In this document: one piece after another, positions 44,007-59,016 of the stretch | How positions within the stretch are numbered: position 1 is the first letter of the stretch | Layout: every line of letters starts with the position of its first letter | Source: Rhodanobacter humi | GTDB taxonomy: Bacteria > Pseudomonadota > Gammaproteobacteria > Xanthomonadales > Rhodanobacteraceae | DNA length: 64,000 bases | Assembly (NCBI RefSeq): GCF_041107455.1 | Contig: NZ_JBGBPY010000001.1 | Location: 2,728,001-2,792,000, forward strand | Direction of reading: 5' to 3' | Notes under the pieces: generated by a model | What the model saw: only the letters and a program-made list of their open reading frames with translations | The model's database searches: none | Told to the model about the DNA's origin: nothing | Made by a program: the position numbers and the translations under genes

Positions 44007-44038
44007 GGGGTTCGCTTGTGGTGTCGGGGCGTGGCGCG

Positions 44039-44953: not shown

Positions 44954-45028
44954 GTTGCTGTGTCCACGTCGATGACTTGCAGCCCCCGAGTGTAACGGGC
45001 CGGCTGCGACGTGGCCGCTTCGGGGGAA

Positions 45029-45070
45029 TGCCGGCAGCAGGAATCGAACCCGCGACCTACTGATTACAAA
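45029..45070 (-). pseudogene. Displaced 3' half of the original tRNA-Thr gene
   Basis: On the minus strand this reads the anticodon-side core, a T-arm (GCGGGTTCGATTCCTGC) and the acceptor end TGCCGGCA. It is not followed by an encoded CCA. The 5' half is missing here and is found 13.2 kb away at 58,2xx. This is the expected remnant when an element integrates into a tRNA and supplies a replacement 3' end. Confidence 0.85.
45054..45070. other. attL core (17-bp direct repeat)
   Basis: GACCTACTGATTACAAA is identical to 58221-58237 within the intact tRNA-Thr. The flanking bases differ, so 17 bp is the maximal core. It corresponds to the anticodon stem-loop/variable-loop part of the tRNA. Confidence 0.92.
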
Positions 45071-45166
45071 ACCGTACTTCAGTGTATTCGGCATGATTCA
45101 AGGTAGTACATCCTCTCGCGGCGAAACGGCGTAGAACAGCCATCTATCGACGTTCGATAGAACTTC

Positions 45167-45220
45167 AGGCAACATGGGGGTAACTGGCTTGACGCCCCCA
45201 TTTGTTGACTGGTGTTGCCT
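45167..45220. repeat. Arm-type repeats near attL (AGGCAAC and GTTGCCT)
   Basis: AGGCAAC at 45167-45173 and its inverse GTTGCCT at 45214-45220 flank a hairpin (ATGGGGG...CCCCCAT). The same heptamer occurs as an 11-bp tandem near attR and as a tandem upstream of the late-like module, which fits integrase arm sites or a common regulator site. Confidence 0.55.
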
Positions 45221-45223
45221 CAG

Positions 45224-46645
45224 ATGACCAAACGCGACGCGCCCGCACTCACGCAAAAAGCCATCGACGCCATCAAGCCCGGCGCGAAACAGACCGATTA
45301 CCGCGACGGTTTTCTGCGAGGGTTGGCGCTGCGCGTCTCCCCTGGCGGCACGATGTCGTGGGTACTCGTGAAGCGACTGCCCGAAGGCGTGAAGCGCATC
45401 CTGTTGGGCCGATACACGGGCAGCTCGGCGCCGGCGGCAACCGTCGATCGATCCCAGTTCCTCGCCGGCTACCAGTCCCTGACGCTCAAGCAGGCACGCG
45501 AGGAAGCGGCGCGGGTGCTGGCCATGGTTGCGGAAGGACGTAGCCCCACCGTCGAACGTGCGCGCGCCAAGCACGTTCGAGCGGTTGACGCCGAGCGCGG
45601 ATCCTTCCGCGACCTCTTGGCCGACTACATCACGGCACGATCGGAAGGCACCGACAAGCGGGCCGCGGCCGGCGAGCGCCAGATTAAGGAATGGCGCCGC
45701 GTGGTTTCCGGTCTGGAGAAGCAGGCACCGGAAATCCTGGACATGAAAGCGCGGGAGGTGGAACCCGCCCACGTTGTGGCGCTGCTGCGGCCCATATTCC
45801 ACCACGGCACGGCCCGCCCCAAGACCGGGCGCGGCAGTGGTGGCCGGCGCAGCACAGGCGGCGCGCAGGGAAGCGCGGACAAGGTGCAGACATTCATGCG
45901 CGCCGCGTTCGCGTACGGCTTGGCCGCCGAGAACTCCGTGGCGCGCAAATCAGCCCGCACATATGGGCTGATTCACAACCCGGCCGCGCCGATCCCGCGT
46001 GAGGCGAAGTCCACGCCCGGCACGCGCGCCCTGTCGGCCGCCGAGCTGCGGCAGTTCTGGTGGTCCATTGACCAGGTGCCCAAGGTCGGCCCGGTGATGG
46101 CCAACCTGCTGCGCTTCACCATCGCGAGCGGTGGCCAGCGCACGCACCAGCTGGCGCGCGAGCCTTGGACGTCATACGACACGCAGAGCCGCGTGTTGTC
46201 CCTGGTCGATCGAAAGGGCCGCGGCGGCATGAAGCGCGTGCACCTGGTGCCGATGACATCCCGCATGATCGGCATATTGAAGGCGACACACCTCCACAGC
46301 GGCCAGAACACATGGCCATGGTCGACCAGCACCCGCGCACCGATCGACATTGCATCGCCGGCGAGCGCGGTGCGGTACTTCCTGAAGTCGGAGCATGCAT
46401 TCATTGACGGCGTGCCCATTGCGCCATTCACGCCGCGCGACTTGCGCCGGACGTGCACGCAGTTGATGCAGGCCGCCGGCGTGCCCGACATCGAGGCCGA
46501 TCGGCTGCAGAGCCATGGCGTGGCCGGCGTCACCGGTACGCATTACCGGAACAGTCCAGAGCTCTACCTGCCGGAGAAAAAGCGCGCGCTCGCCACGTTC
46601 GACGAAGTGCTGGGGAAGATTCTGATCGGCAAATCGAACACGTAA
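45224..46645 (+). CDS. int: Tyrosine-type site-specific integrase
   Basis: A 473-aa phage-type integrase of the P4/DUF4102 class. The N-terminal arm-binding domain has LTQKAIDAIKPGAKQTDYRD and FLRGLALRVSPGGTMSWVLV. The core-binding region is about 115-215 and the catalytic domain about 265-440. Catalytic residues are Arg in SGGQRTHQLAR, the Arg of TPRDLRRTCTQLMQ, His in LQSHGVAGVTG and the nucleophile Tyr in THYRNSPEL. The usual His of the HxxR box is Arg here (PRDLRRT), a variant known in some integrases. ATG 45224 lies 170 bp inside attL, reading inward. It should recombine the 17-bp tRNA-Thr cores. Confidence 0.93.
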   Translation: MTKRDAPALTQKAIDAIKPGAKQTDYRDGFLRGLALRVSPGGTMSWVLVKRLPEGVKRILLGRYTGSSAPAATVDRSQFLAGYQSLTLKQAREEAARVLAMVAEGRSPTVERARAKHVRAVDAERGSFRDLLADYITARSEGTDKRAAAGERQIKEWRRVVSGLEKQAPEILDMKAREVEPAHVVALLRPIFHHGTARPKTGRGSGGRRSTGGAQGSADKVQTFMRAAFAYGLAAENSVARKSARTYGLIHNPAAPIPREAKSTPGTRALSAAELRQFWWSIDQVPKVGPVMANLLRFTIASGGQRTHQLAREPWTSYDTQSRVLSLVDRKGRGGMKRVHLVPMTSRMIGILKATHLHSGQNTWPWSTSTRAPIDIASPASAVRYFLKSEHAFIDGVPIAPFTPRDLRRTCTQLMQAAGVPDIEADRLQSHGVAGVTGTHYRNSPELYLPEKKRALATFDEVLGKILIGKSNT

Positions 46646-47027
46646 CGCAGCGTGCCCCGCAGCGATCTATGTTGATGCACATATCTGCACATAGATGCGG
46701 CGCGGTCATCAGTTGGACGGTATCTAAAGGCGCGTTCTGTTCGCTGTTGACCCATCAAGATATCGCCACTAGCTTGGAATTGAAGGAAGGCAGGCGCCGT
46801 CACAGCCGCCGAGCGACGCAGACGCTCGTTAAACCGAAAGCCAGCAGTAGGCATAAGCGCGTCCATACCGCTCTGCCCGACTGAAAAGGCACTTGTGCGT
46901 GTGTCCACGACGACACAAAGGGCCGTCGCCCGGTCGCGTTCGACTCAACAGACGAAGCAAGCCATAGGGTGTGCGCATCTCTGCGTGCCTCAGCCGGTGG
47001 CGTTCAAGACTTCTTCTGGACACACCC
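46646..47027 (+). promoter_or_regulatory. 382-bp regulatory leader between int and alpA
   Basis: No confident gene. It contains GCACATA twice (GATGCACATATCTGCACATA, about 46676), and a GC-rich stretch ending CAAGCCATAGGGTGTGCGCA, then TGCGTGCCTCAGCCGGTGGC, just before alpA. From memory, similar nucleotide strings precede alpA-like genes in other xanthomonad satellite-type islands, which would suggest a structured leader or a small RNA like the immunity RNAs of P4. That link is inference. Confidence 0.35.
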
Positions 47028-47255
47028 ATGACCAACACGAACAGCAGCACCGCGCCCGATCGCATCATCGCCTTTGCCGAACTAAAGCCCGAGCGCGGAA
47101 TCTCCTTTTCCCGCGTGCATCTACGGCGACTCTGGAAGGCCGGAAAGTTTCCCATGCCGGTCCAGTGCTCCGATCGCCGAATCGGCTGGCTCGCCAGTGA
47201 GCTGGACCAATGGCTGGCCAATCGCGTCGCGTCGCGCGCAGGCGGTGACGCTTGA
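47028..47255 (+). CDS. AlpA-family excisionase/regulator
   Basis: A 75-aa winged-helix DNA-binding protein: FAELKPERGISFSRVHLRRL, WKAGKFPMPVQCSDRRIGWL, ASELDQWLANRVA. This is the AlpA pattern (recognition helix, then wing with W-x-x-S-E-I/L). AlpA in CP4-57 and Vis in P4 activate excision and early genes. Its position downstream of the integrase and first in a tightly packed operon fits the early switch gene. Start ATG 47028. The stop overlaps the next start (TTGA). Confidence 0.88.
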   Translation: MTNTNSSTAPDRIIAFAELKPERGISFSRVHLRRLWKAGKFPMPVQCSDRRIGWLASELDQWLANRVASRAGGDA

Positions 47256-47872
47256 ACGCTCGCCCCACATTGCACACCGCGGCGGAACGCGCCGAGCTCC
47301 ACGACCCATCGCAGCCGTTCATCGTCGGCGACGACCTGGAGCAAGTCATTGCCCTCGTCAATCGCGCGATGCGCGAGAACATCGCCGGCGTGACGCTTCG
47401 CATGCACTCCCCGCACGATCTGGACGCCGAGCACGACGACCGCGAACCACTGACGCCAGGCGTGCGCCGCATGGTTCTTTGCATCGATAGCGCGAGCGGA
47501 CAGCCTGGCGTAGTGAATCCCGAAACCGCCTCGACGGTGTTCATGCTTTACGTCATCGGCCAGGGGCCGAACCTGCAGCTGGACGCCGAGCGCGTGCTGC
47601 AGTGGGTCGCACGTGTGGAGCAAGCCAACGGCGCGGCCTGCGTAACGGCCGACGATATCGGCAATCCTGCAGTACTGAAGACAATGGCGCGAAACCGCGT
47701 GGAAGCCAAGTTGGTGGCGGAAGAGCTCGCGGCCGGTGGCGAAGAAACCAACCGTGTAGCGGACGAAGTGCGCGCCGCGGTGGCGAACCCCGCGGCGTGG
47801 TCATTGATCAAGGACGACGACATCGTGGTGGCCACAAGGAGCCTTCATCGTGCGCGAGGGACGTTCGCATGA
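47252..47872 (+). CDS. Unknown element protein, about 206 aa
   Basis: An acidic protein with no recognised domain. The start is probably TTG 47252, overlapping the alpA stop by 4 bp; an internal start near LHTAAERAEL is possible. Segments such as VGDDLEQVIALVNRAMREN and MLYVIGQGPNLQLDAERVLQ suggest an alpha/beta fold. The end overlaps the next ATG by 4 bp. It is part of the early operon alpA-47252-47869-primase, so a role in replication or control is plausible. Confidence 0.65.
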   Translation: MNARPTLHTAAERAELHDPSQPFIVGDDLEQVIALVNRAMRENIAGVTLRMHSPHDLDAEHDDREPLTPGVRRMVLCIDSASGQPGVVNPETASTVFMLYVIGQGPNLQLDAERVLQWVARVEQANGAACVTADDIGNPAVLKTMARNRVEAKLVAEELAAGGEETNRVADEVRAAVANPAAWSLIKDDDIVVATRSLHRARGTFA

Positions 47873-48210
47873 CGGCCACGATTGAACGACAGCTCGACAA
47901 GCAGCGAAAGCGCTACGAAGAAGCCGCACAGGCCATGGTTGGTGCGGTGACAGAAGGTGGTCTACGCGCCGCGGTACACGTCATCGTGACTGAGGCCAGC
48001 GCGTGCAGTGAGATGGCAGTGCGCGCTGAAGTGAAGGCGCAGGGTGTGCTGCGGCGATTGCTCGACAGCTCTGGCCGACTCGTCACGAGCATTGCGCGGT
48101 CAGCGATCGCTGACCCGTTTGCCGGGCCCGGAACGTTCGATGCGGCTGTATTCACCGTCGGCAAGCTGCTGACCGACGCATGGCGCCTGCGCGCAGGCGG
48201 TGATGCATGA
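47869..48210 (+). CDS. Unknown helical element protein, 113 aa
   Basis: It is mostly alpha-helical (IERQLDKQRKRYEEAAQAMV, EMAVRAEVKAQGVLRRLLDS), with an N-terminal coiled-coil-like stretch. No catalytic motif. ATG 47869 overlaps the upstream stop, and its own stop overlaps the primase-helicase ATG (ATGA), so it is translationally coupled to replication. It may be a primase cofactor or small regulator; I do not recognise a family. Confidence 0.65.
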   Translation: MTATIERQLDKQRKRYEEAAQAMVGAVTEGGLRAAVHVIVTEASACSEMAVRAEVKAQGVLRRLLDSSGRLVTSIARSAIADPFAGPGTFDAAVFTVGKLLTDAWRLRAGGDA

Positions 48211-50240
48211 GCGCCACGATTCTGGACGAAGCACTGCGGCACGCGGCCGAAGGGTTCGAAGTGTTTCCGCTGGTCGCCTTCAAGGGCGACGGCAGCAAGT
48301 CAGACGGCAAGAAGCCCGCCGTGAAATGGAAGGCCGAAGCAAGCAAGGACCCCGCGCAGCTGCGCAAGTGGTTCGGCCCGGGTGGCCGCCATGCGCGCGG
48401 TGGGCTGGCGCTGCGCACGGGCGCAACGCGGACCAACCCCGACACCGGCGCCGCCGAATGGCTGGTGGTGGTTGACGTCGACATGGCATCGCATGGCAAG
48501 GACGGCCTTGCGGCATTGCGCGACGCGTGTGCCGCGAACGGCTTGCGCCCGGAAGATTTCGTGACCCGAGTGCAGCAGACTGCCGGCGGCGGTTGGCATG
48601 CACTGTACTGGTCACCGGTCCAGTTGAAGGACGGACCCGACGCGCTCGGCAAGGGTTCGGGCGTCGACATGAAAGCCGACTCTTACATCGTCGTGGCACC
48701 AACGAAGATCGGCGACACCGCCTACCGGTGGGAGGATCCCGCCGCACCGATCGCATGCATAGGCGCGCTCGCGTCGTTGTTCACCACCGGCACGCCGCGC
48801 ACGGCCACCACGGACCGCACTCCCCTACCCGGCGTGGATCCGGTCCGCGCGTTGCAGCGGGGCATTGATTACCTGGCCACCGCGCCGCGATCGGTGAAGG
48901 GTGCCGGCGGTGATCAATGCGCCTTCACCGTCGCGGCGAAGTTGCTGGCGCTCGGCATGGACGAACCGGCCGCACTCGATCTGCTCCTTTCCGAACACTG
49001 GGACGACGGCTGCGGCTGGTCGGCCGATCGGCTCGCCGAGAAAGTGCGCAACGCGGCGCGGTACATGCAGCAGCACCGTGGCGCCGATGCACCCGAAGCC
49101 GCGTTTTCACCGGTGCCGGAAGCCAAACCCGCCCACCACTACAACCTCCTGTCGGTAGGCGATCTGCTCAGCCGGGCGCCACCTTCATGGCTGGTGCGTG
49201 GATTGCTGCCGGCGCGTGGCCTGGGCGTCGTCTATGGCGCCCCCGGTAGCGGTAAAAGCTTTCTCGTTCTGGACCTGGCGGCAGCGATTGCCCGCGGCAT
49301 TCCCTGGGCGGGGCAACGCGTGAAGCGTGGCGCCGTCGTGTATGTCGGGCTGGAGGGCCAGATGGGGCCGCGCGTGTCGGCGTATCTGTGCGATCGCGAA
49401 TTGAAGGCGGCGGACGTGGCCGGGCTCCAGGTGATCGAACGACAAGGATTGAACCTGCTGCAGGACGAGCGCGCCGACGTGGGCCGGCTGATTGCCGACA
49501 TCCAAGGCGCCGAGCTCGGCCCGGTGGCCATGGTGGTGGTGGACACGTTGAACCGCGCGATGCCCGGCGGCAACGAGAACGCCAGCGAGGACATGGGCCG
49601 CGCCATCCGCTGCGCCGGTGAAATATCGGCCGGGCTCGATTGCCTGTGCGTGTTCGTGCACCACTCCGGCAAGGACGCGGGCAAAGGAGCCCGCGGGCAT
49701 TCGTCCCTGTTGGGCGCCGCAGATGCCGAGCTGGAAGTTCGCCGTGGCGACAACGGCGAGGCCCGTTTCTTGGAGGCGACCAAGGTCAAAGACGGCGAGG
49801 ACGGTGCGCGGTTTTCGTTTCGGCTGAAGGTGGTCGACCTGGGCGCCACCAGGGACCACGACCCGGACGCGGATCCATCCGAGCGCGATGCGTCCTGCGT
49901 CGTCGAAGGTTTGGAGCGCGCGACGGTCGGCGCCACCGGCAAAGCACGCAACTGGACGGCACACCGCACCAACGCCCTGGAGGCACTGCGAACCGCGTTC
50001 GATCGTTCCCAGTTCGGCGCGGTGAACTGGGACGACGAGGGCGTGTGCGGCATCGACGACTGGCGCGCGGCCTACTTCGAACTGGTGCCGATCGGTGACG
50101 CGCTCGAAGGTGAAGAACTGCGGACGGCGCGCAACAGCCGAACCCGGAATTTCTCCAATGCCGTGGACTGGCTGACCGCTGAAAAGCTCGTCACGGTGGA
50201 GAAGAAAAAGGGTCGCAGCGGCTACCGGATCGTCTCATAG
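48207..50240 (+). CDS. Bifunctional primase-polymerase (prim-pol) / AAA helicase replication protein
   Basis: A 677-aa protein combining an N-terminal prim-pol domain with a RepA-like AAA+ ATPase. The prim-pol domain (about 5-195) shows EGFEVFPLVAFKGDGSKSDG, KKPAVKWKAEASKDPAQLRK, VVVDVDMASHGKDG (catalytic Asp pair), and GGGWHALYW. The ATPase has Walker A GAPGSGKSFLVLDL at about 344-357 and Walker B MVVVDTLNRAMPGGNEN near 440. A C-terminal winged-helix-like segment ends at RSGYRIVS. It should open and prime the element's origin, as P4 alpha does. The candidate origin begins 12 bp downstream. Start ATG overlaps the preceding gene. Confidence 0.88.
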   Translation: MSATILDEALRHAAEGFEVFPLVAFKGDGSKSDGKKPAVKWKAEASKDPAQLRKWFGPGGRHARGGLALRTGATRTNPDTGAAEWLVVVDVDMASHGKDGLAALRDACAANGLRPEDFVTRVQQTAGGGWHALYWSPVQLKDGPDALGKGSGVDMKADSYIVVAPTKIGDTAYRWEDPAAPIACIGALASLFTTGTPRTATTDRTPLPGVDPVRALQRGIDYLATAPRSVKGAGGDQCAFTVAAKLLALGMDEPAALDLLLSEHWDDGCGWSADRLAEKVRNAARYMQQHRGADAPEAAFSPVPEAKPAHHYNLLSVGDLLSRAPPSWLVRGLLPARGLGVVYGAPGSGKSFLVLDLAAAIARGIPWAGQRVKRGAVVYVGLEGQMGPRVSAYLCDRELKAADVAGLQVIERQGLNLLQDERADVGRLIADIQGAELGPVAMVVVDTLNRAMPGGNENASEDMGRAIRCAGEISAGLDCLCVFVHHSGKDAGKGARGHSSLLGAADAELEVRRGDNGEARFLEATKVKDGEDGARFSFRLKVVDLGATRDHDPDADPSERDASCVVEGLERATVGATGKARNWTAHRTNALEALRTAFDRSQFGAVNWDDEGVCGIDDWRAAYFELVPIGDALEGEELRTARNSRTRNFSNAVDWLTAEKLVTVEKKKGRSGYRIVS

Positions 50241-50252
50241 AGCCGTGAGAAT

Positions 50253-50481
50253 GCGGAAAATGGGCTTTTTCCGCGGAAAAGCCTTTTCCCGCACTTTTGG
50301 CCAGGGGGCGGAAAATGTGCGGAAAAGGTTTGCCGCTTGCGATTTTTCCGCCAGGCGTTGGGGCACAAGGGCTGCGAGCCGTTGCGGAAAATGCGGAAAA
50401 TGCCACGGAAAGGCTTTTCCGCATCTTCATGGGTGCGGAAAGGAAAAGCCGCCACCCTATAGGGGGCGGCTCTTTTTCCGC
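50253..50481. repeat. GCGGAAAA iteron array, candidate replication origin
   Basis: Ten exact copies of GCGGAAAA (both orientations) and one GCGGAAAG lie within 229 bp. Plus-strand copies start at 50253, 50273, 50308, 50319, 50384 and 50393; inverted copies (TTTTCCGC) start at 50267, 50344, 50415 and 50474. Two overlap as a palindrome, CTTTTTCCGCGGAAAAGCC. The array directly follows the replication protein gene. Iteron arrays next to a replication initiator mark origins in plasmids and in P4. No coding sequence is convincing here. Confidence 0.8.
50447..50477 (+). terminator. Rho-independent terminator of the early operon
   Basis: AGCCGCC/GGCGGCT stem (50447-50453 with 50465-50471), with further G/C pairing around a TATA loop, followed by CTTTTT. 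It lies 206 bp after the primase-helicase stop, inside the iteron array, and would end the alpA-primase transcript. It also faces the leftward genes beginning at 50820. Confidence 0.8.
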
Positions 50482-50496
50482 ATGGTGCGGCGATGG

Positions 50497-50820
50497 TTAT
50501 CTGAGCAACTCAGCAGCGCGCTGTTGGGCGTCTCCATCCTGGAAGAAAAGGTGCCAACGCATCGACCCCCGGTTGGCAACTGCATTCGAGAAGCGAAGAA
50601 ACAGTTCGTCGAATGTGTCGCCCGGCAGAGCGGCGCCAAGCTTCACCAGCCGACGCCCAACGTCCAGAAAAAACAACTTTTCGGGCAACGTGGCTTTGAT
50701 TGCGTCGCCGGTGTCCGCCAGCACAACGTAGATCGGGCACAGCAGATCGTGAGTTATCCCGAACCGCCGCCCTTGAACCAGCGTGTAGTCGTCGTCTTGG
50801 AAGAGTGTTTTGACGCGCAT
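50497..50820 (-). CDS. Unknown element protein (leftward), 107 aa
   Basis: A small alpha/beta-looking protein: MRVKTLFQDDDYTLVQGRRF, CPIYVVLADTGDAIKATLPE, FLDVGRRLVKLGAALPGDTF. No known domain. It is one of two leftward genes in the middle of the element and ends facing the origin terminator. With the 50-aa gene upstream (53 bp away) it forms a small opposing operon, a typical position for a lysogenic-state regulator, though no helix-turn-helix is clear. Confidence 0.6.
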   Translation of the reverse strand: MRVKTLFQDDDYTLVQGRRFGITHDLLCPIYVVLADTGDAIKATLPEKLFFLDVGRRLVKLGAALPGDTFDELFLRFSNAVANRGSMRWHLFFQDGDAQQRAAELLR

Positions 50821-50873
50821 GCGCCGGATCCCTGTGGACGTTGTGCGGCGAGGTTAGCCCATCGCGTGAGCTT

Positions 50874-51026
50874 CTACGCTTCGAGGTCCGGGCAACTGGC
50901 GAGCGGCGCCGATTCGGCCGCGTCATCACCGGCATCGTTCAACACAGCTGGGTTGTTTCGGAGCACGTCCAGGATGCGCTCGGCATCTTCGATGGTGGCG
51001 CACTGGATCTGAAGGGTGAAAGACAT
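50874..51026 (-). CDS. Small element protein, 50 aa
   Basis: It is preceded by a good ribosome-binding site (AGGA, 6 bases before ATG 51026). The protein begins MSFTLQIQCATIEDAERILD and continues VLRNNPAVLNDAGDDAAESA with an acidic tail. The betaalpha start resembles a tiny ACT/ferredoxin-like half-domain, but this is not certain. It leads the leftward operon with the 50497-50820 gene. Confidence 0.6.
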   Translation of the reverse strand: MSFTLQIQCATIEDAERILDVLRNNPAVLNDAGDDAAESAPLASCPDLEA

Positions 51027-51427
51027 GTTGATTCCTCAGTGGCACAGCCGGGCGGCTGCGATTGGGAACGCTACGCCTCGACAAAAATAAGTGCAAGTGA
51101 TTGTTTTTGTTGTTATTTTCACAACAGCAACTGTTGCTATTTCCGCACCAGATAGCCAGCTTAAACCCGACCCGCCTCGCGGGCGCGTGTGCGTGAAGAA
51201 GTCCGCACCGCATAGCCCTCACGACTCCGGGCGGCCCTGTCGGCGCCCGAATCGACACGGCCTACTGCTATGAGAAGAGTAGGCGGTCCGTCGTAGGTCG
51301 ATGGTTATCGCGAGATATTCACGTTATAATACAATCAGTTACCGACTATTGCCCACCGTGCAAGGCTATTCAAAAGGCAACATAAGGCAACAAAGGACCA
51401 CATTCCCACCTTGCGGACGCCACCCCG
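51027..51427. promoter_or_regulatory. Divergent control region of the element: palindrome, -10 box and AGGCAAC tandem
   Basis: This 401-bp AT-richer gap holds no gene. Towards the leftward operon lies an exact palindrome, AGCAACTGTTGCT (51126-51138), amid repeated ACAAC/GTTGTT strings, and a lone GCGGAAA. Towards the rightward late-like genes are TATAAT (51325-51330) and a tandem AGGCAAC (51375-51381, 51385-51391). The arrangement suits a switch between leftward maintenance genes and rightward late genes. Confidence 0.55.
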
Positions 51428-52054
51428 ATGGACACCTTCCTTAGCAAACTGACCACCAAGCCCCGCGACGTGGTGCCGCTCCTGACAGCGCAGCTGGCCG
51501 CCGAGGCGGCAGACGTTTCGTCCGCCCGCCAAAAGTATGACGAGCTGGCGCTGGCCGTCGCTGACGGCCGGGCCGACGCCAAGGAGGCAGACAAGGCACA
51601 CGGCGCACTCACTGCCGCCAGTCAGCGCCACAGCCGCACAGCGCACACGCTGGAAGCTGCGCGGGCGCGGGCAGCGGAACAGGTGCGCGCCAAAGCGCGC
51701 GACGAACAAGACGCGGCGTTGTCGCATTGCGTCTCCCTGGCCGAACAGCGCGCCAAGACCGCCGACGCCACCCAGGCAGCGGCCAAGAATCTTGCCGAAA
51801 AAATCGCGGCGCAGCGTGAAGCCGAGATTGCACTGGAAATCGCGTTGCCTGCCGACTTCGGCACCGCACGCCGTGACGGCCTTTACCTTGAGGCCGACGA
51901 GCTGCGCGTTTCGGTCATTTCCGAATTCGACCGGTTGCACATGTTCGGTGGTCCGCCGCCTTGGCGCGAACATCGGCCGTTTGCCGTCAAGTTTCATGAG
52001 TCGGTGGACGTGATGCGCCGCCGCCGCGCGGACATCCTGGGGCTGGCCGAATGA
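51428..52054 (+). CDS. Coiled-coil element protein, first gene of late-like module
   Basis: A 208-aa, strongly helical Ala-rich protein (about 15-140 coiled coil, e.g. AKEADKAHGALTAASQRHSR, EKIAAQREAEIALEIAL). A compact C-terminus follows, with LRVSVISEFDRLHMFGGPPP and WREHRPFAVKF. I know no homologous family. The start ATG 51428 lies behind a candidate promoter, and the stop overlaps the next ATG by 4 bp. A virion-assembly or capsid-associated role is suggested only by its operon partners. Confidence 0.7.
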   Translation: MDTFLSKLTTKPRDVVPLLTAQLAAEAADVSSARQKYDELALAVADGRADAKEADKAHGALTAASQRHSRTAHTLEAARARAAEQVRAKARDEQDAALSHCVSLAEQRAKTADATQAAAKNLAEKIAAQREAEIALEIALPADFGTARRDGLYLEADELRVSVISEFDRLHMFGGPPPWREHRPFAVKFHESVDVMRRRRADILGLAE

Positions 52055-52683
52055 CCGACCAAGCACCCGCCGCAACCGGAGGCGCCGCGGCCACTGCAGC
52101 ACCCAACACGGTCACGCCCACCCCTGCCACCCTCAACACACCCAACGCCAGCGCCCTGCTGCCCCCTGCTGCAGCCGCCACTGCCAGCAGGGACACCGCC
52201 GATGCCGTCATGGCTCAGGCGCTCGTTGCTGGCGGCCACTGGACCGAGGAACAGGCCGCCGCCGCACTGGCCGAAGGGGACGCGGAGCACGAAGGCGAGG
52301 CCGCCGCGGAAGGCGCAGAACCGTTCAACCAATACGCCGCGCTTGCCGACATGAAATCGACACTCGACGCCGTTGGGATTGATGCCAAGGACGCCGGCGG
52401 CGCCGAATGCATCGTGAAGATGGGCTTGGCGCGTGCGCCGACGCCGGAGCAGAACGCCCAGGAATGCGCCGAAACCCTGCAGCACCTTGAAGGGATCTAC
52501 GGCCAAGAGAAAGCCGGCTGGATGGTCGAATGGGCTCGCCGCGAATTCCAGCACCTGGCCGCGGCGAATCCCAAGCTGGTTGACCTGGCCGAGCGCAGCG
52601 GCGCCGGCAACAACCTGGCGCTGATCAAGGCACTGGCGAATCGCGGCATGACCCGCCACTACAAAGCGTACTTCGGTAAGTGA
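52051..52683 (+). CDS. Scaffold-like/capsid-assembly-type protein
   Basis: A 210-aa protein with a low-complexity Ala/Thr/Pro head (1-55), an acidic middle (about 80-95) and a helical C-terminal domain. The end, GQEKAGWMVEWARREFQHLA and then SGAGNNLALIKALANRGM, resembles the C-terminal part of podophage-type capsid scaffolding proteins, where a GNNPALI-x-ALA pattern recurs. No protease or structural core is visible. If correct, it could redirect the size or assembly of a helper capsid. The assignment is by pattern only. Confidence 0.5.
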   Translation: MTDQAPAATGGAAATAAPNTVTPTPATLNTPNASALLPPAAAATASRDTADAVMAQALVAGGHWTEEQAAAALAEGDAEHEGEAAAEGAEPFNQYAALADMKSTLDAVGIDAKDAGGAECIVKMGLARAPTPEQNAQECAETLQHLEGIYGQEKAGWMVEWARREFQHLAAANPKLVDLAERSGAGNNLALIKALANRGMTRHYKAYFGK

Positions 52684-52684
52684 C

Positions 52685-53215
52685 ATGCCGCGGGAGCTGA
52701 CGCCACGACAGATCGCCTTCGTCGCCGCCTTCCAGACCGGAATGCCAGCCGCTCAGGCCGCCGTGCAAGCTGGCTATTCGCCGCGTTCCGCCAAGCACAC
52801 CGCGTACTCGCTCATGCACGACAACGTGCTGGTGCGCGCGGAGCTGGACAAGCTGCGCCAGAAGCTTGTCGCCGAAGCGGAATACAACGGCGCGAAGGCG
52901 ATGGCCGACTGTGAGAGCGGCATGGCGTTTGCGATCAAGACAGACAACGCTAACGCCTACGTTCGCGCCGTCGAATTGAAAATGCGCCTTACCGGTCTGC
53001 TGCGCGAAAAAGTCGACATCACGATAGAGCGTGTCGACCTGGCCGGCGCACTCGCTGAAGCCAGAGAGCGCGCTCAATTGCGACTCAGGTGCGACCCAGT
53101 GCAGCTGATAGAAGGCGACTTTGTTGCTGTGCCTGGCGTTGCGACCGATCGCCCAATTGATAGCGAATCAGCTGCGCGCGATTTCAACGCCAACGGCCTG
53201 GACTGGAACCTGTGA
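52685..53215 (+). CDS. terS: Terminase small subunit
   Basis: A 176-aa protein. The N-terminal helix-turn-helix, LTPRQIAFVAAFQTGMPAAQ and AAVQAGYSPRSAKHTAYSLM, followed by HDNVLVRAELDKLRQKLVAE, is the terminase small-subunit (Terminase_2-like) pattern that recognises packaging sites. The C-terminal part with EARERAQLRLRCDPVQLIEG is variable. There is no large subunit in the element. In SaPIs and other PICIs a satellite-encoded TerS diverts the helper's large terminase to satellite DNA, and I infer that role here. Confidence 0.82.
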   Translation: MPRELTPRQIAFVAAFQTGMPAAQAAVQAGYSPRSAKHTAYSLMHDNVLVRAELDKLRQKLVAEAEYNGAKAMADCESGMAFAIKTDNANAYVRAVELKMRLTGLLREKVDITIERVDLAGALAEARERAQLRLRCDPVQLIEGDFVAVPGVATDRPIDSESAARDFNANGLDWNL

Positions 53216-53371
53216 AACCCGTGGGTCCCATCACCACCAACGAAGGCCGGTGCGGATGGCCGGCACCCCCGGATTCTCGCGCTCAGTTTCACTCAGGGCC
53301 ATCTACACACCGGGCGCTGCGAAATTTTTTTAAATTTTATTTAGCCGTCCAAACCTCAATAGGCGAAATCA

Positions 53372-53683
53372 ATGACCACCCTCTACATCACTGAGCACGC
53401 CGGCCAAGTCCGAGACGCCGCCGGTTATCTGGTGCAGGGCACGCCGGTGCACCCTGCCACCGCTCAACAGACCGTGGCGATCGGCGCAAGCAGTGCCGCC
53501 TCGAACGTGCTCAACGCCAGCACTACGATTGTCGAACTGGTTTCGGATGTCGTGTGCTCGATCGCAGTAGGCACCGCGCCGGTCGCCACGGCTACCAGTC
53601 GCCGCCTGGCGGCCAACGTGCCTATACAAATCGGCGTGCCCGCCGGCAAAAACTACAAGATCGCAGTCATCACCAACAGTTAA
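53372..53683 (+). CDS. Small beta-rich virion-like protein
   Basis: A 103-aa Ala/Thr/Val-rich protein without charged clusters (TVAIGASSAASNVLNASTTI, VELVSDVVCSIAVGTAPVAT, then KNYKIAVITNS). Composition and predicted beta-sandwich resemble small head-decoration or head-fibre-like phage proteins. It lies 156 bp after terS; a poly-A/T stretch precedes it. Cannot be placed in a family with certainty. Confidence 0.6.
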   Translation: MTTLYITEHAGQVRDAAGYLVQGTPVHPATAQQTVAIGASSAASNVLNASTTIVELVSDVVCSIAVGTAPVATATSRRLAANVPIQIGVPAGKNYKIAVITNS

Positions 53684-53695
53684 GTGGAGCAATAC

Positions 53696-53971
53696 GTGGA
53701 TGATTTCGCGGCGCTACGTCGGCTGGTGGTCGCCACGGTGCAGGTGGCCGTCGTCGACGTTCGTTCCCTGGCGTCGCGCCAGAAGGAAAATCCGAACGCC
53801 GCACCGCGGAAGCGAGAGCGCAGCGCGCTCGCATGGATTCAGGACACCACGAGCCGCGCGCCCTTCACTCTGCGATGGTGTTGCGAGCTGATCGACCTGG
53901 ACTTCCGCAAGGTGCAAGCCGGTTTTCTCTCCTGGCTTCCCGTGCCTCCACAAACCGAATCAAGGAATTGA
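53696..53971 (+). CDS. Small phage-type protein with a WI...PF..C..L pattern
   Basis: About 91 aa from GTG 53696 (GGAG six bases upstream), starting 12 bp after the previous stop. It contains a basic linker, then SALAWIQDTTSRAPFTLRWC and CELIDLDFRKVQAGFLSWLP. The W-I, P-F, C-x-L-x-L-D pattern recurs in small uncharacterised phage and prophage proteins, and probably forms a helical DNA-binding module. Possible late regulator. Confidence 0.55.
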   Translation: MDDFAALRRLVVATVQVAVVDVRSLASRQKENPNAAPRKRERSALAWIQDTTSRAPFTLRWCCELIDLDFRKVQAGFLSWLPVPPQTESRN

Positions 53972-53972
53972 C

Positions 53973-55376
53973 ATGGGTTACCTGAACACCTCACCCGATG
54001 ACGACTACAACCTGCAGACGATGGCGCAGGGCGGCAACGTTACGACGGAACTACCCGGCGCCAGCGGTCTAGACGGCATGCTTACTGCGGTGCCCAAGGC
54101 GCTGACGGCGGCAGCCGGCGCCGTAGGCGGCCTGGCAAAAGACACGCTTTCCAATACGCCTATCGGCGAGTCGGTGGGCAACGCGATAGGCAGCATCGAC
54201 GCGCTGAACAGCAGCGCAAAGCAGCTGCTCGGCTACGAAACAATGCCGGAGTTCGATCCGCAGGCGCGCGCATCGGCCAACGCGGCGACGGCCGTCATGC
54301 AGCAGTGGGCGGCCACCGGTGAAGATCCGCGAATCACCGGCGCGCTTGGCCGTACGGTATTCGGCCCGGTGAAAGCGTTGGGCATTATCTCTGGTGCTAC
54401 GCCCGTGATCGGCCCTTGGGGCGCCGCGGCGTTGTACGGCAGCACCGAGGCGCACGACAGCTACCAGACAGACGTCGCCGCGGGCCTGGACCCGACGACG
54501 GCCGCGGAAAAGGCGGCGGTAACCGGCGCCACGTCGGCGGCTTTCGCTTCGGTGCCGATGTTTGGCAAAACGCTCATCAGCAAAGCCCTTTCCGGCATGA
54601 TCGTGAATCAGGCACTTGATGTGGGCGGCAGGGCTGCCACCTGGGGCGTTCTGAAAGCCAACGGGTACGATGTGGCGGCGGACCAGCAAAAGATTTTCGA
54701 CATGGATTCGTTGCGCGCGGACATCTTGATGGGCCTGGCGTTCGGCGTGCACAGTCACTGGGCAGAAACCCGCGGCATCAAGCCCGCTGACGTAAACCCC
54801 GCGGACGTCGACACGTCGGCCGCGGTGCTGGCACAGAACCACTTTGAACGATCATCGACGGGAGTTGCCGTCGACCCCGCCGCGGCCAACACGCACGTGC
54901 GCGTCATGTCCGAGGCGCTGGACAGCGTGGCCAACGGCGACACGCCGAAGGTATCCGCGGACGACGCGCAGACCCTGGCAGAGGGCACGCTGCGCGATCC
55001 CAGCCACGACACGGCGGCAATGATCACGGAAGCGGCGCATGCCGAACTGCCGGGCTTCACGGACGCCATCGCGCCGATCGCCGAGATAGAGCCGCCGGCA
55101 CGCGCCGCCGGCGAGCCGCTGGGGCAGATCCCACCGGATGCGGAAGGCAAGCCCGCACCCGTGCAATTCGACTCGCCCACGCAATACCGCGTCGACCGGC
55201 TGACCAGTCAATATGGTGACATGCTTGTGCCGGATCCCGATGGGGAGCCTGGCAACACGATTTCAGTGTCGCAGCTGACGCAGCGCATGCAACAGGAACT
55301 GGTCGATGCCGATGCGATGGGTCGCGCGCACGAGATGGCTGCGGCGTGCTTCGCTGCTACCGGCGGCGCCTCGTAA
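53973..55376 (+). CDS. Large element protein, possible virion ejection/internal protein
   Basis: A 467-aa protein. The N-terminal part is Gly/Ala/Thr-rich with amphipathic helices (LTAVPKALTAAAGAVGGLAK). A hydrophobic middle, ALGIISGATPVIGPWGAAAL and VTGATSAAFASVPMFGKTLI (about 128-210), could insert in a membrane. The C-terminal part is acidic and disordered. This layout resembles fragments of internal virion (ejection) proteins of podophages that help DNA cross the envelope. No lysozyme or peptidase site is seen. ATG 53973 immediately follows the previous stop. Confidence 0.5.
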   Translation: MGYLNTSPDDDYNLQTMAQGGNVTTELPGASGLDGMLTAVPKALTAAAGAVGGLAKDTLSNTPIGESVGNAIGSIDALNSSAKQLLGYETMPEFDPQARASANAATAVMQQWAATGEDPRITGALGRTVFGPVKALGIISGATPVIGPWGAAALYGSTEAHDSYQTDVAAGLDPTTAAEKAAVTGATSAAFASVPMFGKTLISKALSGMIVNQALDVGGRAATWGVLKANGYDVAADQQKIFDMDSLRADILMGLAFGVHSHWAETRGIKPADVNPADVDTSAAVLAQNHFERSSTGVAVDPAAANTHVRVMSEALDSVANGDTPKVSADDAQTLAEGTLRDPSHDTAAMITEAAHAELPGFTDAIAPIAEIEPPARAAGEPLGQIPPDAEGKPAPVQFDSPTQYRVDRLTSQYGDMLVPDPDGEPGNTISVSQLTQRMQQELVDADAMGRAHEMAAACFAATGGAS

Positions 55377-55524
55377 AACAGGAACCCGCTATACGTCGAC
55401 AAACATCGGGCACACACGGGCGGGCTCAGATGCGCCATGCGCTATGCTCGCTTGGTCGAGGACGCGGCGCACACCACGGCAGCAAAAACGGTCGACTGTG
55501 TGTCGGCCAACTGGGGAGATGACA

Positions 55525-55644
55525 ATGGACGCGATCACGCATGCCGGCTTGGTTGGCTTCGTTGCGGGAGCTTCAGCGCTTGCTGGACACTACACATGGA
55601 AAGCGATTGTGGCTGCGTGGCGCAAACGCGCGGCGAAGCCGTGA
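55525..55644 (+). CDS. Tiny single-TM protein, 39 aa
   Basis: ATG 55525 has GGAG six bases upstream. The product MDAITHAGLVGFVAGASALA plus HYTWKAIVAAWRKRAAKP has one membrane helix and a basic C-terminus. Its stop overlaps the ATG of the next gene (TGATG). Holin, pinholin or coat-like roles are all conceivable. Confidence 0.55.
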   Translation: MDAITHAGLVGFVAGASALAGHYTWKAIVAAWRKRAAKP

Positions 55645-55799
55645 TGGACTTCGTAACCGTTTGGGTTCAATGGCACGGCGCCGCTATTTTGCTGGGGCTG
55701 GCGTTGGGCGGGGGCTCGTGGCTGGGTGACTGGATCCGTCGCAAACTGCGCGCCAAGCCAAGTCCTCCGCCAGAATCTGACGTGCCGTCCCATCGGTGA
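55644..55799 (+). CDS. Tiny single-TM protein, 51 aa
   Basis: MDFVTVWVQWHGAAILLGLA and LGGGSWLGDWIRRKLRAK form one membrane helix with a basic, then Pro-rich tail. Translation should be coupled to the 39-aa gene by the 1-base overlap. Paired tiny membrane proteins at the end of a late operon suggest holin/antiholin-like lysis control, unproven. Confidence 0.55.
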   Translation: MDFVTVWVQWHGAAILLGLALGGGSWLGDWIRRKLRAKPSPPPESDVPSHR

Positions 55800-56436
55800 G
55801 CACGTCGTCCTGCCCGCCCTTCGAAGTAGCTCAATACCAAAACGAAACAGCACCACGCTACCGTACAACCCCAGGTGGTGCTTGCTGCCCTCCACTGCGC
55901 CTAGGTGGGTGATCTATGCAGCGTCCGATGTGTCGAACGATTCCAGTGCGTACCTGGTCGCGAGATAGAGCCCGATCACGCCTACCTCGATGCTGCCGGT
56001 GGCCCGCACCGCAGCGACCAGTTCCTGGTCGGTGCAGCTGAAGCAGCCGCACCAATGCGCACGGCTCAGCCGGTTGCGGAGATTGATCTGCTCGCCCGCA
56101 CTTGCCTTCACGCCGTGGCGCTCATAGTGCGAATGCACCACAGACCGCTTTCGTTCTGCTTGACGGCATAGACGATCATGAGCGGCACCCATGCAAGGGA
56201 AGTCGCCCCGGTCATCGGTCCGCGCTGACAGAGGGCTGTCTGGGCCTGACTCGCGGGGCAGGACCCAGATTGCTCGCGCAAACCAGGAGGTTAGAATCGG
56301 CTGAAAGCCCGGCGACGTGTAGGCGTTCGCCCTAGCCGTATCACCACACAAGGGGCAAACGGATGCAGCACACCCTTAGGGTCGCGTGCACGCGCCGGAT
56401 CCAGGTACGGCCATCCGCCAATCGGAGCGGTAGCCC
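55800..56436. other. 637-bp stretch without a confident gene
   Basis: Both strands have only poor open frames. A 23-codon leftward frame begins at 56179 (MIVYAVKQNESGLWCIRTMS), and another leftward frame ends with a hydrophobic segment (SIEVGVIGLYLATRYALESF) near 55917-55976. They may be parts of a decayed gene. No promoter or terminator is clear. Confidence 0.4.
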
Positions 56437-56889
56437 ATGACATCTCCAATCGGAGAGATTGTGTGGACTCCCGTGCGACTCGGTTTGCGGAGATATCGCT
56501 GCGAGTGGGAAGTGAGAGAGTCGGGCGCGATTTTCCTCGCCGGCGCCACTCATCGCGGCCGCGTTGCAACCGGGAAACAGCGGGAAGAACTTTTCGTCCG
56601 CGGCCTGACGTGGAGATTTGAGCGCGAGCTCTTGGACCGGGTACTAGATAACCCGCAACGCGCAGACTTTTGGCGCAGGCAAGCCGAAGTTAAACGGGCC
56701 GTGCGCCTTGTGTTCGGGTGGCTCATTCTGGCAGCCCTGGTAGCCTCTATCTGGCTCCGACATCCGTTCTGGCACCGCCTAGGACCGGAGCTAGGAGATG
56801 CCGCTTGGATCGCGACGATGGGCGCGATTGTCTTCTTGGCACTTCGTTTGCGGGCCATCACGCTGCGTGCCTTGCGGGTCGAGCTGTAA
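56437..56889 (+). CDS. Unknown membrane protein of the cargo region, 150 aa
   Basis: A basic N-terminal domain (RRYRCEWEVRESGAIFLAGA, RFERELLDRVLDNPQRADFW) is followed by two TM helices (about 88-106 and 119-140) and a short Arg/Leu-rich end. No family is recognised. It lies in the right-end cargo zone, rightward and separate from the late-like operon. Confidence 0.6.
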   Translation: MTSPIGEIVWTPVRLGLRRYRCEWEVRESGAIFLAGATHRGRVATGKQREELFVRGLTWRFERELLDRVLDNPQRADFWRRQAEVKRAVRLVFGWLILAALVASIWLRHPFWHRLGPELGDAAWIATMGAIVFLALRLRAITLRALRVEL

Positions 56890-57160
56890 TTGACGCAGCG
56901 ATTAGAGCCCCGGCATCGGTTAGGCCCAGCCGAACACATTGCGCATCTGGTCCGGCGGCACAGCCTACGATCGCCAGTCGGCCAGCAGATCATAGGAAAA
57001 GGATTTCGCGCGGTGGACTTTGCGGGCCATCGCCGCGGGGTAGCGGCGTGGTGTCTCATGGCGTGACCTGATCGTTGGGGACGACGCACACCGCAGCAAG
57101 ATTCGCCGAATCCGGAGAGCGCCAGCATGCGGTCGCTGTTATGGATGGATATTTAGCGGG

Positions 57161-57691
57161 CTACCTGCGCCGCTTATTTTTATGCCGGCTCTTGATCAGG
57201 TGCGCGCCCATGTTGTGTTCGCGAACAAAATCTATCGGCTTGTGGGAGGGAACGCGGTAACTCATCACCGTCTTTCCGCCCACGTTAGTGATTGCAAAGT
57301 CGCCAGCGCAGATAATGTCCATTCCAATGAGCATATCGATGCCCGAAATGTTTCCCCGGGACACCGTCATGCCGGGAAAACCGACCCCATTAGGTAGCTT
57401 CACTGCAACAAAGAAGGTCTCGGTCAGATGCTCGCCGTTAGCGGTATTGGCGCGGGTTAGCCCGGTGGGCAATAACCCAAGCTTGTCGACCACCGCTTGG
57501 GTGATGACGGTTTGCGTGGCACCCGTATCCCAAATGGCGTTGAACAAGTGCGACTGCTGCTGCGCAGGTGGATTTAGCGGGTCAAATCCAACCATGACTT
57601 CGCATTGCGTCGGAATGACGTTCGAACGGCCATCAAAAGTAACGGTGAGGCACTGGTGCTGCGGTCCTTGCTGCCGGGGTTTGTCCGTCAT
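57161..57691 (-). CDS. Retropepsin-like aspartic protease
   Basis: A 176-aa protein with a clan AA aspartic protease domain: NAIWDTGATQTVITQAVVDK (DTGA active site, about 50-69), MTVSRGNISGIDMLIGMDII (the second psi-loop-like ILIGMD pattern, about 108-127), and FAITNVGGKTVMSYRVPS. One DTG per chain implies a retropepsin-type homodimer. There is no signal peptide, so it is cytosolic. Its ATG overlaps the stop of the upstream DUF5678-like gene by 4 bp, so the two are a unit. Natural substrate unknown; located next to attR where satellites carry cargo. Confidence 0.85.
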   Translation of the reverse strand: MTDKPRQQGPQHQCLTVTFDGRSNVIPTQCEVMVGFDPLNPPAQQQSHLFNAIWDTGATQTVITQAVVDKLGLLPTGLTRANTANGEHLTETFFVAVKLPNGVGFPGMTVSRGNISGIDMLIGMDIICAGDFAITNVGGKTVMSYRVPSHKPIDFVREHNMGAHLIKSRHKNKRRR

Positions 57692-57969
57692 CCGTGAACA
57701 GCCACCCGCGAATAGAAGGTCTGCGACGTGGAATCATCTCCGGGCCGAACCTGCTGCACGAGAAAATTTCCATAACCGTACTTCTCGCTCGCCGAGGTCG
57801 TGGCCTTTATGACGTCGTCGTAGATACCGACAACTTTTTGGCCCGAGATGACGACAACCTTTCCATCATATTCCTTCACCAACTCTCGCTGATGCGCGAT
57901 GAAATAGTCGAAATCTTTGCGGAGTTCCGTACTCACGTCGGCTTGGCTCTTTGGCAGTTGGTCATTCAT
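57688..57969 (-). CDS. DUF5678-like small protein coupled to the retropepsin gene
   Basis: A 93-aa protein: ELRKDFDYFIAHQRELVKEY, DGKVVVISGQKVVGIYDDVI, then KYGYGNFLVQQVRPGDDSTS and QTFYSRV. This matches the DUF5678 pattern (HQxELxxxYxGKVVxI, F-x-V-x-x-V-x-P-G). I chose ATG 57969 (MNDQLPKS) over an upstream ATG with unrelated residues. The ATGA overlap with the protease gene suggests a functional pair, possibly protease plus substrate or inhibitor. Confidence 0.75.
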   Translation of the reverse strand: MNDQLPKSQADVSTELRKDFDYFIAHQRELVKEYDGKVVVISGQKVVGIYDDVIKATTSASEKYGYGNFLVQQVRPGDDSTSQTFYSRVAVHG

Positions 57970-58125
57970 GGGCAAGACTTCGACAGAGAACCGAAGCCCG
58001 TTGTGCAGCATGCAACCATAACATGGCGTTAATAGCACAACAATTCAACAAACACCAAACGCCCCAGAACAATATCGCTCAAGGTTAAGAGCGGCAGATC
58101 GCTGTGGAACTTGAGCGCTGCCTGG

Positions 58126-58147
58126 ATGTTGCCTAGATGTTGCCTAT
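58126..58147. repeat. Tandem 11-bp repeat GATGTTGCCTA near attR
   Basis: GATGTTGCCTA occurs twice in a row (the second ends TATA, one mismatch at the edge), about 75 bp inside attR. The GTTGCCT core is shared with two sites near attL and two upstream of the late-like module, fitting integrase arm-type sites. Confidence 0.6.
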
Positions 58148-58192
58148 AGACTGCGCATTCGACCGCAATCCGTCGTAATTCATTGTTTTTAT

Positions 58193-58268
58193 TGGTGCCG
58201 GCACCCGGATTCGAACTGGGGACCTACTGATTACAAATCAGTTGCTCTACCAACTGAGCTATGCCGGC
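58193..58268 (-). tRNA. tRNA-Thr (anticodon TGT), hybrid restored by the integrated element
   Basis: A 76-nt tRNA on the minus strand with acceptor GCCGGCA/TGCCGGC, D-arm AGCTCAGTTGGTAGAGC, anticodon stem-loop CTGATTTGTAATCAG with anticodon TGT, T-arm CCCAGTTCGAATCCGGG, and encoded CCA. The T-stem has an A-C mismatch at its fourth pair, not present in the displaced original half at 45029-45070. The 5' half is chromosomal and the 3' half comes from the element. Confidence 0.95.
58221..58237. other. attR core (17-bp direct repeat) inside tRNA-Thr
   Basis: GACCTACTGATTACAAA, identical to 45054-45070. It covers part of the anticodon stem-loop and variable region of the tRNA. Confidence 0.92.
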
Positions 58269-58296
58269 GTGGGGCGGGATTCTAGCAGGGGTGGCT

Positions 58297-58977: not shown

Positions 58978-59016
58978 CGATCCCCCGTCAGGAAAGACTC
59001 GGACAAGCCATATTGA

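Follow-up and report, generated by a model that had tools for sequence, protein, structure and literature searches.

The stretch of Rhodanobacter humi DNA analysed here (64,000 nucleotides of contig NZ_JBGBPY010000001.1, positions 2,728,001 to 2,792,000; called the window below, with positions counted from its first letter) carries an integrated element that measures 13,167 bp from core to core and lies between exact 17-bp repeats in a tRNA-Thr gene. Comparison of its genes with those of related elements and phages makes it likely that this is a phage satellite resembling the phage-inducible chromosomal islands (PICIs), and that it parasitises epsilon15-like podoviruses. Six related elements in other genomes are referred to as L002, L046, L047, L048, L049 and L051. 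The features of the window element are the following (att, attachment site; TerS and TerL, small and large terminase; gp, gene product; aa, amino acids).

45054..45070, left att core, 17 bp, exact repeat
45203..45220, minus strand, AGGCAACA-type repeat pair at the left end, presumed integrase arm site with putative binding
45212..46645, plus strand, tyrosine integrase (PF13356, Arm-DNA-bind_3; phrog_1), alternative start 45224
46971..47255, plus strand, AlpA-type regulator/excisionase (PF05930), alternative start 47028
47252..47872, plus strand, g206, no assigned function, relatives in L048 and L049
47869..48210, plus strand, g113, no assigned function, tblastn relative in L051
48207..50240, plus strand, Prim-Pol plus AAA_25 replication protein (PF09250, PF13481), present in all seven elements
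50240..50490, both strands, GCGGAAA iterons, presumed replication origin
50874..51026, minus strand, small gene with relatives in L046 and L047
51027..51427, conserved non-coding region preceding the packaging operon, with GCCAGCT at 51155 and a third AGGCAACA pair at 51375-51392
51428..52054, plus strand, g208, modelled as a long helical hairpin, presumed capsid or packaging factor, cluster member in all seven elements
52051..52683, plus strand, g210, scaffold-like C-terminus by hhalign, in all seven elements
52685..53215, plus strand, TerS, Terminase_2 N-terminus (PF03592, E 2e-9) and a C-terminal tail as in candidate helper phages
53372..53683, plus strand, g103, no assigned function, weak PHROG match only
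53684..53971, plus strand, g95, no assigned function, tblastn relatives in L002, L046 and L047
53973..55376, plus strand, g467 (467 aa), relative of epsilon15 gp16 by sequence homology, presumed ejection protein
56437..56889, plus strand, 150-aa product, cargo, no Pfam match
57161..57691, minus strand, aspartyl protease-like cargo (PF13650)
57688..58038, minus strand, DUF5678-like cargo, slightly below the family cut-off
58127..58145, minus strand, AGGCAACA-type repeat pair at the right end, presumed integrase arm site with putative binding
58193..58268, minus strand, tRNA-Thr (TGT), intact
58221..58237, right att core, 17 bp, exact repeat, within tRNA-Thr

The att repeats and a displaced tRNA 3' half had been pointed out in a first-pass annotation made from the letters of the DNA, and both were recovered: the two 17-bp cores are identical, the displaced 3' part of tRNA-Thr occupies 45029-45070 (within an 83% match over 47 nt), and the intact gene overlaps the right core. 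Since the tRNA 3' half of the element differs from the displaced chromosomal one, integration swaps the T arm of the tRNA. Between 45029-45070 and 58196-58242 the repeat is exact over the 17 bp only; the end repeats of L002, L047 and L048 are exact over at least 40 bp. The precise empty tRNA-Thr sites that the annotation proposed to look for exist as well. In G405, a genome of the same genus with an arginase that is 99% identical, the flanks meet at a single tRNA-Thr without the element, and window positions 43500-45070 and 58196-58990 align as one continuous stretch across it. With the own locus left out, the flanks meet at four of eight same-genus loci (L111, L112, L114, L118), two others (L113, L115) have the two flanks plus a few hundred additional bases, and L116 and L117 are uninformative on this point. 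The G+C content, taken in 1-kb steps, is 56-68% over 45001-58000 as compared to 60-76% elsewhere in the window.

An integrase reading inward, an AlpA protein, a prim-pol/helicase with adjoining iterons and a small terminase had likewise been recognized from the open frames, and the domain matches given above agree with all four assignments. The 208-, 210- and 467-aa products matched no Pfam family. GCGGAAA occurs 11 times (both strands) within 50240-50490, out of 24 copies across the 64-kb window, and all six window copies of TGCGGAAAA lie in this same iteron region. Direct-repeat integration and absence from sister genomes are PICI traits, as is the core of integrase, AlpA and primase/helicase, which is completely present.

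Relatives were sought by a scan of genome contigs, which gave 11 loci, and by a PrimPol search of the order (398 genomes); the window genes were then compared by tblastn and genes were called. The sole family member among the contig loci was L002, from Dyella ginsengisoli (Lysobacterales), several of the other ten loci being cut by contig ends. PrimPol matched 48 genomes (own genome counted), and the regions of 12 of these were examined: five hold family members (L046 in G346, L047 in G310, L048 in G022, L049 in G287 and L051 in G125) and seven are without g208, g210 and terS by tblastn. The search of Lysobacterales genomes for the same gene order, suggested by the first-pass annotation, thus yielded six relatives with alpA, PrimPol, g208 and g210, five of them with a full-length TerS. 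Direct matches of the window proteins extend to all six for AlpA, PrimPol and g210, to five for full-length TerS, and to L002, L046 and L049 for g208, the g208 proteins of the other three being linked via cluster and position. When 378 genomes were searched with a g208 profile, 24 matches resulted, of which 18 are partial and the six near full length were all already known.

The relatives measure, core to core, 13,241 bp (L002), 13,886 bp (L051), 14,263 bp (L047), 14,336 bp (L048) and 14,802 bp (L049), with about 14,642 bp for L046 based on a 14-bp repeat only; the family range of 13.2-14.8 kb is about a third of the 39,672-bp epsilon15 record. Identity to the window integrase is 65-69% for the integrases of L002, L047, L048 and L049 and 21% for that of L046; the L051 integrase gives no match. 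Insertion is in tRNA-Thr(TGT) for L002, L047 and L048 and at other sites for L046 and L051. The end repeat of L049, 53 bp long, contains tRNA-Thr sequence; a tRNA-Glu called in L049 was set aside as doubtful. The modules of L049 and L051 are the same, in different orientation. The cargo of relatives includes an AbiJ-like domain with DUF7014 (L046:9334-10248), a SocA/Panacea-type antitoxin domain (L047:17333-17917) and an SRAP domain (L048:14681-15664).

The lack of a large terminase, portal, capsid and tail was part of the original case for a satellite, and TerL, portal, capsid and tail tube went undetected in all seven elements. Neither Pfam and PHROG nor comparison with reference phages revealed a gene for any of these in the window element, and relatives of TerL, portal, capsid, gp11, gp12 and gp15 were found in none of the seven when the proteins of epsilon15, YeP5, Shamal and BUCT711 served as queries. 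No called satellite gene matched the same proteins of the candidate helpers described below (gene set without the L068 and L069 extensions). The protein that reference phages encode ahead of the capsid gene matches only the C-terminal stretch of one g210 among the seven elements.

Such a gene set could also be left by an epsilon15-like prophage that lost the TerL-to-gp15 stretch and decayed, and the homology of PrimPol and the late virion genes to those of phage G399 and related phages agrees with that, as do the reduced genes of some members (the TerS tail of L046, gp17 of L049). Nevertheless, decay is very unlikely in view of the sequences: all seven elements share the extra genes g208 and g210, not detected as such in the phages compared, and they fall in a narrow size range with frames that are mostly open. 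Pairwise identities among them are 21-74% (int among five, g208, g210 and TerS), and that the same genes are kept over such distances argues against independent decay, the exceptions to open frames being the L046 TerS tail, the interrupted gp17 of L049 and a gp17 stub in L046. A larger, complete prophage version, named by the first-pass annotation as the sign of a deletion remnant, was sought in 396-398 genomes of the order and not found. The 467-aa gene was found in four of 398 genomes, two of them with weak partial matches, the others being the own genome and that of one further satellite. TerL of the candidate helper G398 gave two weak partial matches over 396 genomes, none of them in the own genome. 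A search with epsilon15 TerL in 7 genomes gave no match; it had no positive control and carries little weight. With seven divergent elements of similar size that retain the same replication and packaging backbone, the economy of a satellite that had been claimed for this locus is supported by comparison.

Regarding the virion-like genes, the main one stood, with a correction: it encodes a late virion protein of epsilon15-like podoviruses, as shown by gp16 homology. The 467-aa product has PHROG matches of unknown function only and is homologous to epsilon15 gp16 and its relatives. It also matches a Yersinia phage gene that directly precedes a gp17-like gene, and L002 has gp16 and gp17 in the same order; CDS 29-1426 of the Yersinia phage is a tailspike by its matches. 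A viral scan with the 467-aa protein gave no relative. That this gene belongs to the epsilon15-like group points to a helper, and each of the seven elements has at least one late virion gene of the same kind: gp16 in the window, L002 and L046; gp17 in L002, L048 and L051, interrupted in L049 and reduced to a short remnant in L046; a tailspike in L047 and L049; and gp14 in L046 and L051.

A gp17 scan of IMG/VR gave six loci. Two IMG/VR phages, G398 (33.5 kb) and G399 (34.8 kb), have TerL, portal, capsid, gp11, gp12, gp14-gp17 and tailspike in epsilon15 order, the TerL of G399 being cut by the contig end and both contigs possibly incomplete. Satellite and phage proteins are 54-74% identical for gp17, 40-56% for gp16 and 45-51% for gp14; the tailspikes are 53-61% identical over the first 200 residues and 22-26% over a stretch of the remainder. 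Among the satellites themselves, g208 is 23-46% and g210 21-56% identical, so the virion proteins keep the helper form as these backbone genes drift. The phages G398 and G399 are, by these comparisons, likely to represent the helper group. The PrimPol of G399 is homologous to that of the satellites, and a 57-aa HTH_17 (helix-turn-helix) protein of the helpers is found intact in L046, L047 and L048 (59-81%) and in L051 (43-44%); a search for this gene in the window gave two weak matches only (E 0.03 and 0.08). When L049 PrimPol, L002 TerS and L047 tailspike were used as queries in further viral scans, the yield was three loci with matches to short stretches and one phage-type contig, L140, which has PrimPol as well as late virion genes. 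Two observations on neighbouring phage genes may be added. In G385, gp15-, gp16- and gp17-like genes of the epsilon15 type lie near a contig end (L070:12756-19985), with gp17 split over two overlapping frames, in what looks like a separate prophage. In G398, a gene resembling HNH/NUMOD4 homing endonucleases (L104:10252-10779) lies between TerS and TerL.

The TerS proteins connect satellites and helpers in an unequal way. Their N-terminal families differ, with PF03592 at residues 5-101 of the window TerS and PF20901 (Sf6 type) at 13-105 of the G398 TerS (L104:9570-10070), and the match of the satellite TerS profile to G398 TerS is confined to profile positions 105-164 (E 2e-19); its match to G400 TerS covers 107-151 (E 6e-6). 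By tblastn, residues 105-164 of L002 TerS gave 57% to the helper-type tail (five virus records in the comparison, the first parts of four taken). In IMG/VR the TerS profile had at least 600 pattern matches, and the 19 loci among the matches listed were weak and mostly N-terminal. The natural reading would be a satellite TerS with its own DNA recognition and a dock for the TerL or portal of the helper; an own TerS, here with a helper-type tail, is at the gene level also a PICI trait. A 68-aa frame of L046 (L046:12606-12812), the start of which overlaps the end of g210, consists of the TerS C-terminal tail alone, and the presumed docking tail seems to survive there without the DNA-binding part.

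For g210 the relevant proteins are the gp6-like ones, encoded just before the capsid gene. The g210 profile aligned through its C-terminal stretch to a set of four of them (hhalign probability 87%, E 3.8e-6), and to the same set with three candidate helpers added (82%, E 1e-5). In a control, g210 was compared with 147 phage proteins one by one; ranks 1-4 went to the four gp6-like references (84, 73, 45 and 2%), and no other protein exceeded 1.2%. The gene position of gp6 suggests a scaffold, epsilon15 gp6 itself being annotated as a protease. The model of g208 is a long helical hairpin (pLDDT 82, pTM 0.56), which found nothing in the PDB at E <=0.001, and that of g210 is helical (pLDDT 75). 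In SaPI1, CpmB has a C-terminal motif as in the helper scaffold and leads to T=4 shells (PMC5644958), and the g208/g210 pair recalls CpmA and CpmB. Perhaps g210, probably together with g208, acts as an alternative scaffold that gives smaller capsids; the size of all seven elements would agree with this. The satellite might instead use full-size helper capsids, with its DNA packed as a multimer or as partial headfuls and g208 and g210 having no effect on size. That g208 has no function by homology, that the g210 link is confined to a C-terminal stretch, and that PICMIs (phage-inducible chromosomal minimalist islands) are described as being without capsid remodelling (PMC10803314) would be in keeping with this. 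We regard it as unlikely, because the elements are uniform in size, at about one third the length of the epsilon15 genome, and because the control on 147 proteins showed the gp6-like C-terminus of g210 to be specific.

The non-coding block ahead of the packaging operon is conserved too. In all seven elements GCCAGCT stands ahead of a G+C-rich stretch (one that resembles an intrinsic terminator in L049 and L051), and forty 12-mers (at most 2 mismatches) are common to at least five elements, many of them low-complexity CGCG strings, as compared to none in five single-base shuffles. Three AGGCAACA pairs lie in the window element; 30 shuffles produced none, and the window outside the element has no others. 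The window element, L002 and L047 have such a pair close to each end, L048 and L049 close to one end, and L046 and L051, of which the integrases differ, lack them. In four of the elements (window, L002, L047 and L049) an internal pair precedes the packaging operon, and because of this position the integrase may touch the packaging promoter; the block at 51155-51392 is possibly an internal integrase site that controls the packaging genes. An inverted repeat CCTACT...AGTAGG close to the third pair resembles part of the att core.

What we infer about helper use, packaging redirection, capsid size and cell entry can be combined in a single scheme. Integrase and AlpA would excise the element from tRNA-Thr, and PrimPol would replicate it from the adjoining iterons. 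By docking on the TerL or portal of the helper, TerS would direct satellite DNA into helper capsids, made smaller by g210 and probably g208, and the variable late-virion cassette (gp16 in the window; gp14, gp17 or tailspike in relatives) would be built into the hijacked particles and change cell entry. The full proposal, in which the family borrows the helper capsid and motor and adds a TerS and a scaffold of its own together with an exchangeable entry cassette that re-targets the particles, for instance into helper lysogens, is plausible and at the same time open to considerable doubt. In phage P22, SieA blocks DNA entry through the ejection proteins, and hybrids with HK620 ejection proteins are partly resistant (PMC10883804); the epsilon15 record contains, by annotation, genes for serotype conversion. 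The satellites thus carry both kinds of virion parts that are open to exclusion by lysogens, and entry into helper lysogens, in which they may face both barriers, might be of advantage to them.

The virion genes could also have no role in entry, being competing copies that interfere with helper assembly or entry, or passengers of recombination. Members carry different genes, the window element and L048 have single ones without partners, and L046 holds a short gp17 remnant, all of which is compatible with such a role. We find it doubtful nonetheless, as every element has at least one such gene, with long open frames in most, as gp17 stays closer to the helper than g208 and g210 stay to each other among satellites, and as the tailspikes keep their first 200 residues with a diverging remainder.

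Several points weigh against a satellite of epsilon15-like podoviruses as described. The case is built on comparison of sequences and not on experiment, and G398 and G399 are candidate helpers by their gene content. The query with G398 TerL found no helper prophage in the own genome. The TerS of epsilon15 matches the satellite N-terminus, and a plain exchange among phage TerS genes could therefore have made the chimera; moreover, G399 is without the TerS end of its genome, which leaves G398 and, at weak similarity, G400 to show the shared tail. The pre-capsid-gene proteins of two candidate helpers score singly 1.0 and 0.7% against g210 and the third is outside the top 15, so that the scaffold link rests on epsilon15-type relatives. 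Finally, L046 keeps only the 68-aa TerS tail and gp17 of L049 is interrupted, and not every member need be active. If the satellite reading holds, PICI-like piracy extends to epsilon15-like short-tailed phages, with a helper-tailed TerS of another DNA-binding family and a scaffold-like tail reminiscent of CpmB. If the cassette works in particles, these satellites change which cells the helper coat enters, beyond riding in it, and the question of how satellites reach helper lysogens despite superinfection exclusion becomes testable.

The combination of genes had been described as matching none of the P4, SaPI/PICI, PLE (PICI-like element) or capsid-forming PICI layouts. This holds for capsid-forming PICIs, P4-like satellites and, by host, PLE, but the order int-alpA-primase-terS is of the PICI type and less alien than claimed. 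P4-like satellites have genes of the Sid, Psu and Delta type; none of the scanned window proteins had such a match in Pfam or PHROG (one batch with Pfam only). PLE and PICMI are, according to PMC11773190, confined to Vibrionaceae; the named relative here is a Dyella of the Lysobacterales, and the distinction is by host and not by gene comparison. Capsid-forming PICIs also have virion-related genes and, as the window element would, depend on a helper, but they form capsids and borrow tails (PMC10690885), whereas here entry-end parts are carried and no match to the capsid, portal and TerL set was seen. The Escherichia coli PICIs, as Gram-negative examples, have the same core of integrase, AlpA and DNA primase/helicase (PMC11773190); their redirection of packaging relies on Rpp bound to the helper TerS (PMC6739421), whereas this element has its own TerS. 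EcCIMP1 is without identifiable capsid or terminase genes (PMC11773190). MiniFlayer, a Streptomyces phage satellite, has its own tail fibre gene (PMC10690885), but capsid and terminase genes of its own as well, and it does not belong to the integrated PICI-like elements. Epsilon15-like podoviruses, including G398 and G399, share gp14, gp16, gp17, the tailspike N-terminus, the TerS tail (G398), PrimPol (G399) and the 57-aa HTH gene, and differ in that their gene sets are of the phage type, TerL, portal, capsid and tail tube included.

One of the closest parallels in principle is SaPI1 with its helper 80alpha, and the window element, PICI-like by layout, probably works in a similar way. Both have att integration, an integrase, an own replication protein and an own TerS (PMC10690885), as well as a small protein with a scaffold-like C-terminus, CpmB in the case of SaPI1 (PMC5644958). 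No homology to CpmA or CpmB was seen, and the likeness is one of principle only. The present family differs by its AlpA-type regulator, its helper genes of podovirus type and its satellite-borne gp14, gp16, gp17 or tailspike. In the literature covered, with preprints and most subscription journals outside its scope, no satellite with podovirus ejection genes is described; the overall plan is otherwise PICI-like, and it is the cassette of virion parts that is new.

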